This document shows positions 3,342-7,468 of a stretch of 64,000 nt of DNA, piece after piece. Each line of letters begins with the position of its first letter. Within the stretch, counting starts at the first letter, position 1. The stretch comes from Wohlfahrtiimonas chitiniclastica DSM 18708. GTDB lineage: Bacteria; Pseudomonadota; Gammaproteobacteria; Cardiobacteriales; Wohlfahrtiimonadaceae. Below the pieces are notes generated by a model. That model saw only the letters and a program-made list of their open reading frames with translations. It had not been told where the DNA came from and did not search any database. The translations under genes and the position numbers were made by a program. The DNA is taken from positions 822,600 to 886,599 of the forward strand of contig NZ_AQXD01000001.1 in assembly GCF_000375345.1 (NCBI RefSeq), given 5' to 3'.

Positions 3342-4157
3342 TCATCGCCAAGCTTTGGGCAAAATGAACCCATCGTACAACGGCTCATTTAAAATGTAGG
3401 CTTTAAACTCATCGGACTCATAAGCCGCTTTGAGATCCTTTGCCCAAGGTTCGTCTTTCAGCGCCGACGGAATGGTGACAATCACCACATGTTCATCGGG
3501 CGTCTCTTCAATGGCCAATGAATCGCTGATTTTAAGCCCCATGCTCATGATGTAATTGCCATTGACCACTGCAAAATCTGCATCCTCTAACGAGCGCAAA
3601 GCCTGCGCCGGATCAATCTCTTTGATGTTTAAAGTATATTGCCCTGGCAAAATGTCTTTGACACTAAAGCGAATCGGATCAACCCCTTCACGGATGGTTA
3701 CCCAACCGAGTTTTTCTAAAATGCGGGCGGCACGCTCGGCATTGACGGGATCATTTGGAATGGTGATGGTCATGCCATCTTGAATGCTTGATAAGCTTTG
3801 ATGATGCTTTGAGCGCAATGTCTGCGGTGCACTGGCAGTATTGGCAAGCTTGATCATGTTTGAGCCCGTCAATCGATTGATCTCCTTCATAAAAGCTTCA
3901 CTTTGGAAAATCGACGCATGCACTTCGCCATCTTTCATACTGCGATTGATTTGGCTATTTTGTGAAAAAACTTTTGGCTCAATGTGATGGCCTTTTGCCG
4001 TCATGATGGGCATGATTCCTTGAATGAATTGATCCGAATAAGTCGAAGGGCCAAACGCCACCACAATCGAATCTTGCGTGCTCTTTTTATCCTGCCCACA
4101 CGCGGCTAATAATCCCATGAACAAAAACGCGATTGTGACTTTAAATAACTGATGCAT
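3342..4157 (-). CDS. metQ: Methionine ABC transporter substrate-binding lipoprotein MetQ
   Basis: The 271-residue NlpA/MetQ-family protein has a lipoprotein signal peptide whose lipobox LAAC places the acylated Cys at residue 20. The mature part starts with a spacer and then the binding-domain pattern VVAFGPSTYSDQFIQGIMPI. MetQ delivers D- and L-methionine to the MetNI transporter at the inner membrane. The start is the ATG at 4157 because AGGGAG lies 7 bases upstream; a longer in-frame start at 4178 would add residues before the signal peptide. It overlaps the 3' end of the flavoprotein gene by 17 bases, so it is coupled to it. It is the last gene of the operon. Confidence 0.93.
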   Translation of the reverse strand: MHQLFKVTIAFLFMGLLAACGQDKKSTQDSIVVAFGPSTYSDQFIQGIMPIMTAKGHHIEPKVFSQNSQINRSMKDGEVHASIFQSEAFMKEINRLTGSNMIKLANTASAPQTLRSKHHQSLSSIQDGMTITIPNDPVNAERAARILEKLGWVTIREGVDPIRFSVKDILPGQYTLNIKEIDPAQALRSLEDADFAVVNGNYIMSMGLKISDSLAIEETPDEHVVIVTIPSALKDEPWAKDLKAAYESDEFKAYILNEPLYDGFILPKAWR

Positions 4158-5319
4158 GATGATTCTCCCTAAGTGCACGCAAGGCGGATTGCGCTAAATT
4201 GATGTAAACCATGTCTTCCATCGGCGGATTGTGTAAACCTGCGCGCACATCGCGATACAGGCGCTGCAATGGATTGTCCATGGACAATGAGCGCGCGCCC
4301 ACTAAACGCATTGCTAAATCCACCACCTCAATGGCGTGATTGACGACAGCAGTTTTTGTCACCGCCAAGGCATCCCCAAGTGTTGAACGCGTTTTAGCAT
4401 CAGCAAGATCCCAGTCACGTGCCACACCAAAGAGTAAATATTCGCTTTCGATGAGCTTTGCGCGCATTTGCCCAAGCTTTTGCTGCACCAAGGGTAAATC
4501 GCCAATTGTGCCCGTTGCTAAGCTATTGGGTGCATAATGGGCAGCAAATTCTAACGCTTCATTCAATGCCGCTTTTGCAATGCCGTAATACACCGCCGGA
4601 ATGTGTAGCAACCAACCTTGTGGCGCTCTGTTCACCACTTTGGTCATCAATAATGCATCTTTTGGCAGTGACACCTGATCTAAAATGAGATCATGGCTGC
4701 CGGTTGCACGCATGCCAAGCATGTTCCATGTCTCTTCTATGCGCAATCCTGTATAGGTGCGTTTGACTAAAAACTGTCCCACTTCATCTGTATCATTAAT
4801 GCGGGCAGAGACCACAAAATAGTCGAGCACAGGCGATAAGGTTGTAAATGTTTTACGTCCTGTGATCACCCAGCCAGATTCAGTGGTGCGCGCTGTGGTT
4901 TCAGGCAAACCGCCACGCGTTGGGCTGCCGGTTGCCGCTTCAGTGGCGGCGCTGTTGATTAAAGCACCCTTCGCCACCACATCTTTGGCAAACTCACGGA
5001 AAGTGGCTTCAGCCCACGGACGATCATCGCTCAACTGCTTACTCATACCAATGTGCCAACCAATGGCCAACGCGGTGGCAGCATCATTTGCTGCAATGAT
5101 GGCTTGATGGCGCAGCATCTCTTCTAGCGTGACGCCAATGCCACCATATTCAGCGCTCAAGGTGAGCGCAGGATACGCAATGCGTTTTAAATCTTCAATG
5201 TTTTCAAAGGGAAAAGTGTTATTTTGATCATGGTGATGAGCGCGTGCTTTGAAGGCTTGAGCCGTTTTTTGAGTCAAAGCAAGACGCTCACCCATGGTGT
5301 CATGGGTGAATAATGTCAT
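4141..5319 (-). CDS. Acyl-CoA dehydrogenase-fold flavoprotein, SfnB/DszC-like, inside the met transporter operon
   Basis: The 392 residues show the acyl-CoA dehydrogenase layout: a helical N-terminal domain, a middle beta domain (around GWVITGRKTFTTLSPVLDYF) and a helical C-terminal domain ending with LQRLYRDVRAGLHNPP. This C-terminal pattern is typical of the flavin-dependent monooxygenase-like branch (SfnB, DszC), whose known members act on organosulfur compounds. Its position between metI and metQ, overlapping metQ by 17 bases, suggests a role in obtaining sulfur from a compound brought in by this transporter. No dedicated flavin reductase gene is adjacent. A genuine acyl-CoA dehydrogenase is the alternative. 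Family is secure; substrate is inference. Confidence 0.75.
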   Translation of the reverse strand: MTLFTHDTMGERLALTQKTAQAFKARAHHHDQNNTFPFENIEDLKRIAYPALTLSAEYGGIGVTLEEMLRHQAIIAANDAATALAIGWHIGMSKQLSDDRPWAEATFREFAKDVVAKGALINSAATEAATGSPTRGGLPETTARTTESGWVITGRKTFTTLSPVLDYFVVSARINDTDEVGQFLVKRTYTGLRIEETWNMLGMRATGSHDLILDQVSLPKDALLMTKVVNRAPQGWLLHIPAVYYGIAKAALNEALEFAAHYAPNSLATGTIGDLPLVQQKLGQMRAKLIESEYLLFGVARDWDLADAKTRSTLGDALAVTKTAVVNHAIEVVDLAMRLVGARSLSMDNPLQRLYRDVRAGLHNPPMEDMVYINLAQSALRALRENHHASVI

Positions 5320-5340: not shown

Positions 5341-6030
5341 TTATGAGCGAACGCGTTTTGCGAAGTAGTTACCGATCATTTGAATGGCTTGAACCAAGAC
5401 CACTAAAATGATGACACAGTAAACAATCACAGCGTTGTCATAGCGATTGTAGCCGTAGTTGATGGCCAAATCGCCGATGCCGCCTGCACCAATTGCGCCA
5501 GCCATGGCGGTTGCGCCAATCAGGCCAATCGTTGCCGTGGTGAAGTTTAAAATAAGGGATGCTTTTGCTTCAGGAATTAAAAAGTGCCACACCGTTTCAA
5601 AGGTCGATGCTCCCATCGCATTTGCGGCCTCAATGATGCCGTGATCCACTTCTAATAATGAGGTTTCCACTAAGCGTGCAATGAAAGGCGCAATGTAGAT
5701 GGTCAGTGGAATCATGGCGGCAGATGTCCCAATGCCCACATCTAAAATCAAACGGGTAATCGGCATCACAGCCACCAATAAAATGATGAAAGGCAGTGAG
5801 CGCACGATGTTAATGATGGGATTTAACACATTATAAATTGCGCGATGTGGGCGAATGCCATTAGGGCGCGTCAATACCAAAATAATGCCAAGTAAGCCCC
5901 CTAAAATGACGCCCAGCACTAAGGAAACCACCACCATCCATAAGGTTTGTTGCCCAGCTAAAATAAAGCCCTCTAAACCCACAGTGTGGGGGATGAATAA
6001 ATCTTTAAAAATTGCGGTTAATTGTTCCAT
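5341..6030 (-). CDS. metI: Methionine ABC transporter permease MetI
   Basis: This 229-residue inner-membrane protein has five predicted hydrophobic segments and the ABC-permease coupling loop EAANAMGASTFETVWHFLIPEA, as in MetI. With MetN it forms the methionine importer. It starts 10 bases after the metN stop on the minus strand and is followed by the flavoprotein gene 21 bases on. The length equals typical MetI (about 217-230). Confidence 0.94.
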   Translation of the reverse strand: MEQLTAIFKDLFIPHTVGLEGFILAGQQTLWMVVVSLVLGVILGGLLGIILVLTRPNGIRPHRAIYNVLNPIINIVRSLPFIILLVAVMPITRLILDVGIGTSAAMIPLTIYIAPFIARLVETSLLEVDHGIIEAANAMGASTFETVWHFLIPEAKASLILNFTTATIGLIGATAMAGAIGAGGIGDLAINYGYNRYDNAVIVYCVIILVVLVQAIQMIGNYFAKRVRS

Positions 6031-6040
6031 GAAAACTCTC

Positions 6041-7066
6041 CTAATCCAACTGATTGTGCGTCACACGAACGCCATGATCTCTTAAATATGCAACGGCTTT
6101 TGCCACCGCATCATCATCGCCAATGAACTGCACAAACATGCTGCCAATGACGGAGCCTTCGATCTCGATCATGTTAGAAAATAGGAAATTAACCACCACT
6201 AAGCGGTTTAAAATGAGCTCATTGACCACTGGTGTTTTCGCAGAATCGCCCAAAAATTCCAAGCGGTAAATGTGATTAGGATGGGCATCATCAATGTTGC
6301 GAATGATGCTTTTAGGAATCTCATCTTCAATCAACGTATTGATGAATTTACGCGTCATCGGTGCGGCTGGATTTTGGAAAATCTCTTTTGTTGAACCCGT
6401 TTCCACCACAACGCCTTTATCCATCACAGCAATGCGGTTACAAATGCTTGTGACCACTTCCATTTGGTGCGTCACCATCATGATGGTGATGCCCTGCTCT
6501 TGGTTGATTTTACGCAATAAATTCAGGATCGATTGCGTGGTTTGTGGATCAAGGGCAGAAGTTGCCTCATCGCACAATAAAATGTCAGGATTGTTTGCCA
6601 AGGCACGCGCAATGCCCACACGCTGCTTTTGCCCACCGGATAACTCACGCGGATACGCATGTTTCTTATCAGGAATTTCCACATACGCAAGCAACTCATC
6701 AACGCGCGCATCAATCGCCGCTTTTGATAAATTGGAGTTGAGTTTTAAGGGGAGCGCAATGTTTTCTGCCACCGTTTTTGTTTCAAGCAAATTAAAGTGC
6801 TGAAAGATCATGCCAATGCGTTTTTTGACATTGCGAAGTTCTATCGGGGAGAGAGATTGGAGAGATTGGCCGTTGATGATGACATTACCAGACGTTGGCC
6901 ATTCAAGCGCATTGACTAAGCGAATGAGGGTGCTTTTGCCAGCGCCGCTGTAACCGATGACGCCAAAGACATCGCCTTTGTTGATGGTTAAATTGATGGG
7001 GTGAAGCGCTGTGACTTCTTGATTGTTCTTAAGATAGCTTTTGGTGATGTTTTGAAACTCGATCAT
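6041..7066 (-). CDS. metN: Methionine ABC transporter ATP-binding protein MetN
   Basis: This 341-residue ATPase has Walker A GYSGAGKST near residues 38-46, the ABC signature LSGGQKQRVGIARAL and Walker B ILLCDEATSALD. A C-terminal NIL/ACT-like domain (from about residue 265) is the regulatory domain that binds methionine and inhibits transport in E. coli MetN. The start codon has only a weak Shine-Dalgarno (CGGG about 10 bases upstream). It lies inside the 3' part of an overlapping upstream ORF, which suggests translational control of this gene. It is the first structural gene of the metN-metI-flavoprotein-metQ operon. Confidence 0.95.
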   Translation of the reverse strand: MIEFQNITKSYLKNNQEVTALHPINLTINKGDVFGVIGYSGAGKSTLIRLVNALEWPTSGNVIINGQSLQSLSPIELRNVKKRIGMIFQHFNLLETKTVAENIALPLKLNSNLSKAAIDARVDELLAYVEIPDKKHAYPRELSGGQKQRVGIARALANNPDILLCDEATSALDPQTTQSILNLLRKINQEQGITIMMVTHQMEVVTSICNRIAVMDKGVVVETGSTKEIFQNPAAPMTRKFINTLIEDEIPKSIIRNIDDAHPNHIYRLEFLGDSAKTPVVNELILNRLVVVNFLFSNMIEIEGSVIGSMFVQFIGDDDAVAKAVAYLRDHGVRVTHNQLD

Positions 7067-7163
7067 GATGAAGTGCCCGTGATTTTAATAAAGTTTGATC
7101 TAATAAAGTGGTGTGTGACATTTGCATAGAACAGCAGCACATCATTGACATTAACATTTGCAT
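7029..7163 (-). CDS. Met/Cys-rich leader peptide (upstream ORF) of the metNIQ operon
   Basis: A 44-codon ORF begins with a strong AGGAG 7 bases before its ATG. Its first 15 residues are MQMLMSMMCCCSMQM: seven Met, three consecutive Cys and few other amino acids. It then runs through the metN start in another frame and ends 38 bases inside metN. The Met-Met-Cys codons (AUGAUGUGC, 7137-7145) are complementary to the metN start region (7064-7076), so they could sequester the metN AUG. This looks like a translated sensor of methionine/cysteine supply that controls metN. I know of no described family with this sequence. The ORF and its ribosome site are seen directly; the regulatory role is inferred. 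Confidence 0.6.
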   Translation of the reverse strand: MQMLMSMMCCCSMQMSHTTLLDQTLLKSRALHHDRVSKHHQKLS

Positions 7164-7203
7164 CGTAAAACTCCTGAATAAAATATTTTGCTTAAGCTCA
7201 ATA

Positions 7204-7232
7204 TTTATAGCATTAAGATTTTTGATGTGCAA
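7204..7232 (-). promoter_or_regulatory. Sigma-70 promoter of the metNIQ operon
   Basis: On the minus strand TTGCAC and TATAAA are separated by exactly 17 bases. A start site around 7197 would give a leader of about 34 bases before the Met/Cys-rich upstream ORF. No MetJ box (AGACGTCT repeats) is visible around it. Confidence 0.6.
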
Positions 7233-7440
7233 ATAATTTTTACATATATTACATATACATTAAATATGTGATTATTTTTCATTCAGATAAAATTTGTTTT
7301 TCATGAATCAACGCGCTATATTATGCGCTTCTAAAATCCATATAAATTATTGATTATTGTTTTAAATATATATTTAATTGATTTATTTTAGTTAAAAGTG
7401 CTGCACCATTGCATCGGAATCAGTGCCCCTGATTCCCATA
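7233..7440. other. AT-rich intergenic region upstream of metNIQ, with a small hairpin
   Basis: This gap between the metNIQ promoter and the ruvX terminator is strongly AT-rich. The only structure I see is an inverted repeat GGAATCAG/CTGATTCC with a 5-base loop at 7416-7436, just beyond the ruvX terminator. It has no T tract on either side. No gene is apparent. Confidence 0.5.
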
Positions 7441-7468
7441 AAAAAGGGGAAAACATTGTTCCCCTTTT
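7441..7468 (-). terminator. Rho-independent terminator after ruvX
   Basis: The minus strand has a ten-pair stem AAAAGGGGAA/TTCCCCTTTT with a 7-base loop and a run of six T. It lies 25 bases after the ruvX stop codon. Confidence 0.8.

Follow-up and report, generated by a model that had tools for sequence, protein, structure and literature searches.

Control of methionine genes is usually described in terms of MetJ, SAM riboswitches or T-boxes. In the classical attenuators thrL, ilvL and hisL, the leader codons correspond to the products of the pathway, with thrL and ilvL reading more than one amino acid, and in erm-type translational attenuation a drug is the signal and a ribosome stalled on the leader frees the downstream start site. 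Polycysteine leader sORFs of mycobacteria are reportedly the subject of work by Canestrari et al. from 2020. As far as the accessible text of the source papers goes, mycobacterial polycysteine sORFs are Cys-run leaders ahead of sulfur operons (PMC9094748, PMC13236596), actinobacterial cys leader peptides lack terminators (PMC1262725), and uORFC-8-2, located upstream of cysS in Rhodobacterales, carries tandem conserved Cys codons, mostly UGC (PMC8632094). Our literature search, which left out most subscription papers, found no described methionine-codon or metN leader peptide, and the polycysteine leader ORF of actinobacteria is the nearest kind that we found to the element reported here, a Met- and Cys-rich ORF at the head of a methionine-type uptake operon in Wohlfahrtiimonas chitiniclastica.

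We analyzed a 64,000-nucleotide stretch of W. chitiniclastica DSM 18708 DNA (hereafter the window), in which the leader ORF occupies positions 7029-7163 of the minus strand and encodes 44 amino acids. Its ATG (7163-7161) lies 7 nt after an AGGAG Shine-Dalgarno (SD) sequence (7171-7175, minus strand), and its stop codon ends at 7029, or +38 relative to the A of the metN start codon. A first-pass annotation of this DNA had proposed an ORF with a strong ribosome site that reads through the metN start in another frame; the ORF, its ribosome site and the out-of-frame passage into metN are all present in the sequence, but the ORF starts at 7163 and not at 7166. The first 15 residues (MQMLMSMMCCCSMQM...) contain the seven Met and three consecutive Cys that had been described, and the Met-Met-Cys-Cys-Cys codons (ATG ATG TGC TGC TGT) span 7131-7145 on the minus strand. 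The computed anti-SD duplex is -6.9 kcal/mol for the leader versus only -2.5 kcal/mol for metN, in agreement with the idea that metN has a weak ribosome site of its own.

Upstream of the leader we identified a promoter-like site (7204-7233, minus strand; script scan) with a TATAAA box at 7204-7209, 41-46 nt ahead of the leader ATG, and TTTGCA 18 nt or an overlapping TTGCAC 17 nt further upstream. A stricter scan returned no minus-strand promoter here, and promoter-like sites are no commoner in the sequence than in shuffles. A hairpin scan detected, on both strands, a terminator-like hairpin at 7442-7468, in the region that separates ruvX from the putative leader promoter. The window scan found no intrinsic terminator between the leader and metN; the leader regions of relatives were scanned for T-runs alone. 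Rfam covariance models, that of the SAM riboswitch included, gave no match in the window at gathering scores, consistent with the first-pass annotation's remark that no such riboswitch is visible.

The four genes that follow the leader on the minus strand take their names from family profiles, with NCBIfam scores under the curated cut-offs and Pfam domains over theirs. metN (6041-7066) encodes a methionine-type ABC transporter ATPase with a NIL domain (TIGR02314, E 3.1e-109, 365 bits, below the cut-off of 499.7; Pfam ABC_tran and NIL above cut-off), and metI (5341-6030) encodes the permease (NF008049, 184.5 bits, below the cut-off of 212; Pfam BPD_transp_1). The third gene (4141-5319) encodes an SfnB-like oxidoreductase of the acyl-CoA-dehydrogenase fold (best NCBIfam match TIGR04022, E 1.4e-32, 113 bits, far below the cut-off of 430.9; Pfam acyl-CoA dehydrogenase domains), and the fourth (3342-4157) a metQ-like NlpA lipoprotein (TIGR00363 below cut-off; Pfam Lipoprotein_9 above cut-off), whose start we set at an internal ATG at 4157, the listed ORF opening with GTG at 4178. 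Judged by these profiles, the operon looks like one for methionine-type uptake. Ten of the 11 fetched loci show the order metN-metI-sfnB-like-metQ, the eleventh being truncated by a contig end and five unfetched family loci standing outside the count; the last two operon genes lie over 1 kb apart in L151, L155 and L156. At E 1e-90, an orthologue of the sfnB-like gene occurs in the window genome alone among 369 sampled genomes of the class, a sample that apparently contains no other family member, and in one of 80 metN loci, which is that of the family member. Elsewhere in the window, positions 1441-2406 of the minus strand encode a type I-F CRISPR Cas1 (TIGR03637, E 1.6e-142, above cut-off), indicating that the left end of the window probably holds a CRISPR-Cas locus.

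Searches of the 18 family genomes for sulfur metabolism genes returned no MetJ (PF01340) in any of them, with a positive E. coli control. MetF is present in 14 of the 18 and was not found in G000, G001, G002 and G005 (completeness 100, 94, 100 and 81), which represent four of the six congeners and include the window genome. PAPS reductase profiles gave weak partial matches in seven genomes, three of them above cut-off yet spanning no more than about half of the profile, and we found no convincing PAPS reductase among the 18; cysE and Cys/Met-metabolism PLP enzymes occur in every genome. The failure to find MetF in these congeners suggests that part of the genus is auxotrophic for methionine, and from its gene content the window species probably depends on imported methionine.

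We searched for metN orthologues in 57 genomes, plus the G016 start on L134. Of the 18 family genomes 17 yielded one; the exception, G006 (80% complete), showed none. These loci fall into six Wohlfahrtiimonas genomes, including that of the window, two genomes of a second genus (g3) and nine loci of a third (g4). As a leader we counted an SD and an ATG with a 16-residue stretch holding at least two Cys, at least two Met and at least six of these residues in all, a rule fixed after leaders had been seen. Such a leader precedes metN in 15 of the 17 family loci, including all six from Wohlfahrtiimonas, and in none of the 78 non-family metN loci examined (L083 was left out for having too little upstream sequence). 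It was likewise absent from the 13 metN paralogues fetched from the family, further paralogues having stayed unfetched, and among 43 window genes metN is the only one to have it. When the upstream regions of the 17 family loci were dinucleotide-shuffled, a leader arose in 0.08% of cases. Lowering the threshold from six residues to five admits one of the 78 outside loci (L046, Paenibacillus) and 0.29% of shuffles, and dropping the SD requirement as well admits two outside loci and 4.4% of shuffles. Conservation and shuffles together rule out a chance ORF. The first-pass annotation had proposed looking for the ORF and its Met/Cys run in related genomes, and both turn out to be kept, in Wohlfahrtiimonas as well as in two other genera.

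The leaders of the six Wohlfahrtiimonas genomes carry MQMLMSMMCCC, MKKLMSMMCCC or MKNLMTMMCC-stop; the last form, found in L006 and L007, is a complete peptide of 10 amino acids that stops right after Met-Met-Cys-Cys and has a weak SD (-3.2 kcal/mol). Both g3 genomes carry the cluster MNRSIMMMCCCSMCCCAM, and seven of the nine g4 loci have clusters such as MCKMMKNPMIQMIMCCC, QRMCCCM, MCRC, MCMMRMCYC, MLCSMARCC and MLREICC. Overall, a CCC or CC run is present in 13 of the 15 leaders, with spaced Cys in L014 and L016. The cluster is absent from L015 and L017, which belong to two similar g4 genomes and have likely lost it. These two loci retain a short SD-led ORF upstream of metN (MNHQRDSVLNMCRAEFHKM) that contains no Met/Cys cluster.

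The pattern ATGATGTGYTGYTGH occurs once per genome, at metN, in all six members of Wohlfahrtiimonas and in both g3 genomes. Three further g4 matches, two before one type of ORF and one inside an ORF, were judged incidental; the ORF behind the two presumably encodes a secretin-like protein. Of the 12 stretches fetched around metF, Cys/Met PLP-enzyme and cysE genes, 11 were scanned (all but L148) and none gave an ATG-started candidate; L144 has three TTG-started candidates near those sulfur genes. A looser scan of 80 loci for an SD and at least three Met or Cys returned W. populi, L042, L046, L048, L059, L077, L102 and L108, of which only W. populi has a family-like Met-Cys cluster.

Within the leader, it is the Met and Cys codons that are kept. 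Across seven pairwise comparisons, which reuse sequences and so are not independent, the residue is retained at 35 of 57 Met/Cys codons versus 25 of 139 other codons, while the Cys codons themselves are UGC or UGU according to lineage. In the six Wohlfahrtiimonas genomes, the first 14 nt of the Met-Met-Cys-Cys-Cys codons (ATGATGTGCTGCTG) are invariant. Pairwise identity among three lineages of this genus is 0.83-0.86 at -94 to -71 and 0.69 at -70 to -59, then drops to 0.25-0.50 past the cluster, at -58 to -11; for metN it is 0.56-0.89. Between two pairs of g4 loci, leader and metN diverge in opposite ways: L010 and L012 share 98.9% identity in the leader (-218 to -31) and 85.7% over the first 600 nt of metN, while L011 and L012 share 41% in the leader (ungapped comparison) and 99.2% over the same part of metN. 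By this mismatch, recombination between g4 species appears to have brought leader and metN into new combinations, and both exchanged leader forms retain Met and Cys.

The position of the cluster relative to metN is also confined. The last Cys codon ends 53-86 nt before metN, with leader starts ranging from -88 to -218, and in 13 of the 15 leaders the end falls within metN, between +4 and +38. The chance of an open frame after the cluster is 0.25 to 0.71 for any single species in which it is open. The leaders of L006 and L007 end 55 nt before metN, and the part after the cluster is thus dispensable in these two loci.

An ORF with its SD, conserved Met/Cys codons, its position before this operon, and searches that found neither a MetJ gene nor a terminator are established at the level of sequence. 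On balance we favor, with moderate confidence, a reading in which the leader is a regulatory peptide of the metNI-sfnB-like-metQ operon and acts through translational attenuation by ribosome stalling. The sensing half of the amino-acid-sensing leader first proposed for this locus agrees well with the selective keeping of Met/Cys codons and with the conservation of the ORF before a methionine-type uptake operon; a role of these codons as a gauge of charged Met- and Cys-tRNA appears well supported. We infer that the ORF is translated, that ribosomes stall on it, and that stalling switches metN expression. When Met and Cys are ample, ribosomes loaded at the leader SD would traverse the cluster and, in most species, continue over the metN start in another frame, occupying it; in Wohlfahrtiimonas, the metN start could in addition pair with the Met-Met-Cys codons between passing ribosomes. 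Under ample supply metN would rarely be initiated. If either sulfur amino acid ran short, a ribosome would halt on the cluster at the observed distance from metN, leaving space for a new 30S subunit, covering the pairing codons and permitting metN translation. Occlusion of this kind cannot operate in L006 and L007, where the leader stops before metN.

The pairing half of the original proposal found support within the genus only. The segments named were AUGAUGUGC (7145-7137) and GCACUUCAUCAU (7076-7065); their coordinates are right within a base, but the complementarity is partial. In minimum-energy folds of all six Wohlfahrtiimonas leaders, 9 to 12 cluster bases pair with metN positions -20 to +10 (ensemble expectation, 7.9 to 12.0 pairs), and an RNAalifold consensus recovers the helix between the cluster and the metN start (7065-7076 of the minus strand in the window), a candidate element with weak statistics. 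The folds of the nine g3 and g4 leaders, however, contain no such pairs, and their ensemble expectation does not exceed 0.9. Covariation, suggested at the outset as a check, did not bear the helix out: the RNAalifold covariation term is unfavourable (+1.09), several 3' positions mismatch, and the 5' side cannot be tested by covariation because its codons never vary. Duplex tests covered 12 of the 15 leaders, counted any leader-to-start pairing and were mostly non-significant. Against UTR shuffles, p was 0.044 for L002, 0.17 for L004, 0.44 for L005, 0.126 for L006 and 0.08 for L007; the corresponding values against codon shuffles were 0.29, 0.30, 0.62, 0.056 and 0.094, and the lowest value among the other seven leaders was 0.014 (L008, codon shuffle). 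Modelling a ribosome on the Cys codons lowered the cost of opening the metN start in L002, L003, L005, L006 and L007, five of the six Wohlfahrtiimonas loci. The five falls were from 11.1 to 4.4, 8.3 to 3.9-4.6, 5.4 to 3.4-3.5, 5.3 to 2.8-3.0 and 5.0 to 3.3-3.4 kcal/mol. The sixth, L004, gained nothing at the Cys codons (4.3 to 4.4-4.6) and something at the Met codons. In g3 (L008 and L009) only the last Cys position helped (4.6 to 3.3), and in g4 the gain was at most 0.8, with L013 moving the opposite way (3.0 to 5.1-5.2). The pairing thus stands marginally above shuffles, and the models are suggestive of a genus-level addition. Folds and opening costs together leave three family-wide features: the Met/Cys codons, the distance that separates them from metN and the run across the metN start, the last in 13 of the 15 leaders.

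Some of the same observations could be read differently. In five g4 loci, the stop codon of the leader and the GTG start of metN overlap (GTGA), in two more the leader ends at +14, and metN in g4 has a strong SD of its own (-6.4 to -6.6 kcal/mol); counted against stalling, this arrangement could mean plain translational coupling, in which ribosomes that terminate on the leader re-initiate at metN, the leader's Met/Cys codons tune the flow, and shortage lowers metN expression. That sign is the opposite of what an uptake operon would be expected to show, and coupling leaves the selective keeping of Met/Cys codons unexplained. The L006 and L007 leaders, moreover, stop 55 nt short of metN, and ends at +26 and +38 are poorly suited to re-initiation; we therefore think coupling unlikely. 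Control through Rho, with leader translation governing Rho-dependent termination before or within metN, would fit the window scan, which returned no intrinsic terminator from the leader to metN, relatives having been scanned for T-runs only, and the accessible text on terminator-less actinobacterial cys leaders proposes such a mechanism (PMC1262725). We see just a slender chance of it here, since the leader enters metN and leaves no untranslated gap in 13 of the 15 loci.

Two other readings place the function in the peptide rather than in its codons. A nascent chain that binds a sulfur metabolite (e.g. methionine, SAM or cystine) in the tunnel could arrest the ribosome, and the Met-Met-Cys-Cys core is indeed fixed in Wohlfahrtiimonas, even in the 10-residue form. 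Little beyond Met and Cys is common to the genera, though, and their spacing and order vary in a manner unlike that of the tunnel-binding peptides known to us, which makes arrest distinctly improbable. Alternatively, the finished peptide might itself act, as a thiol/thioether binder of copper or another soft metal or as a sulfur store. Met and Cys are metal ligands, and a CXXC motif is attributed to the copper-sensing uORF CruR in the accessible part of its description (PMC9426467). A product as short as 10 amino acids with no fixed ligand spacing, encoded at a location bound to the metN start and ahead of an operon that resembles sulfur amino-acid uptake and not metal handling, makes this scarcely credible.

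Returning to translational attenuation by stalling, the conservation of the leader suggests that translating ribosomes sense shortage of both sulfur amino acids. More tentatively, and a little short of even odds in our judgment, one leader ORF may act as a dual sulfur gauge, reading Met and Cys supply jointly; the passage of ribosomes over an overlapping start codon would then be the main control on a methionine/sulfur uptake operon, with no terminator, riboswitch or MetJ involved. In a family where searches found no MetJ, no convincing PAPS reductase and MetF in only part of the genomes, the translating ribosome itself appears to gauge Met and Cys in common. Small and easily transplanted to E. 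coli K-12, the element would probe Met codons as regulatory codons even though Met also serves initiation.

Compared with known systems, this leader resembles thrL, ilvL and hisL in carrying codons for the products of the controlled pathway in a short ORF, but differs from them in that no terminator/antiterminator pair was found and the leader mostly overlaps the first gene. As in erm regulation, release of a downstream start would come from a ribosome stalled on the leader; unlike erm, the signal would be amino-acid shortage, and a sequestering hairpin is predicted in Wohlfahrtiimonas alone. With uORFC-8-2, as the accessible text presents it, the leader shares a proteobacterial host and Cys codons in tandem, but uORFC-8-2 ends in an intrinsic terminator for transcription attenuation and serves a tRNA synthetase, whereas the leader described here precedes an uptake operon with no terminator found. 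The mycobacterial and actinobacterial Cys leaders are likewise short Cys-run ORFs ahead of sulfur operons that lack an intrinsic terminator, and attenuation by ribosomes on their Cys codons is proposed or shown in the portions of those papers available. The mycobacterial sORF is leaderless; the Wohlfahrtiimonas ORF, with its SD and, some 41 nt upstream, a promoter-like site, is probably not. Unlike the actinobacterial leaders, it gives Met as prominent a place as Cys, lies before a methionine-type uptake operon in a gammaproteobacterial host, and in most loci overlaps the start of the structural gene.
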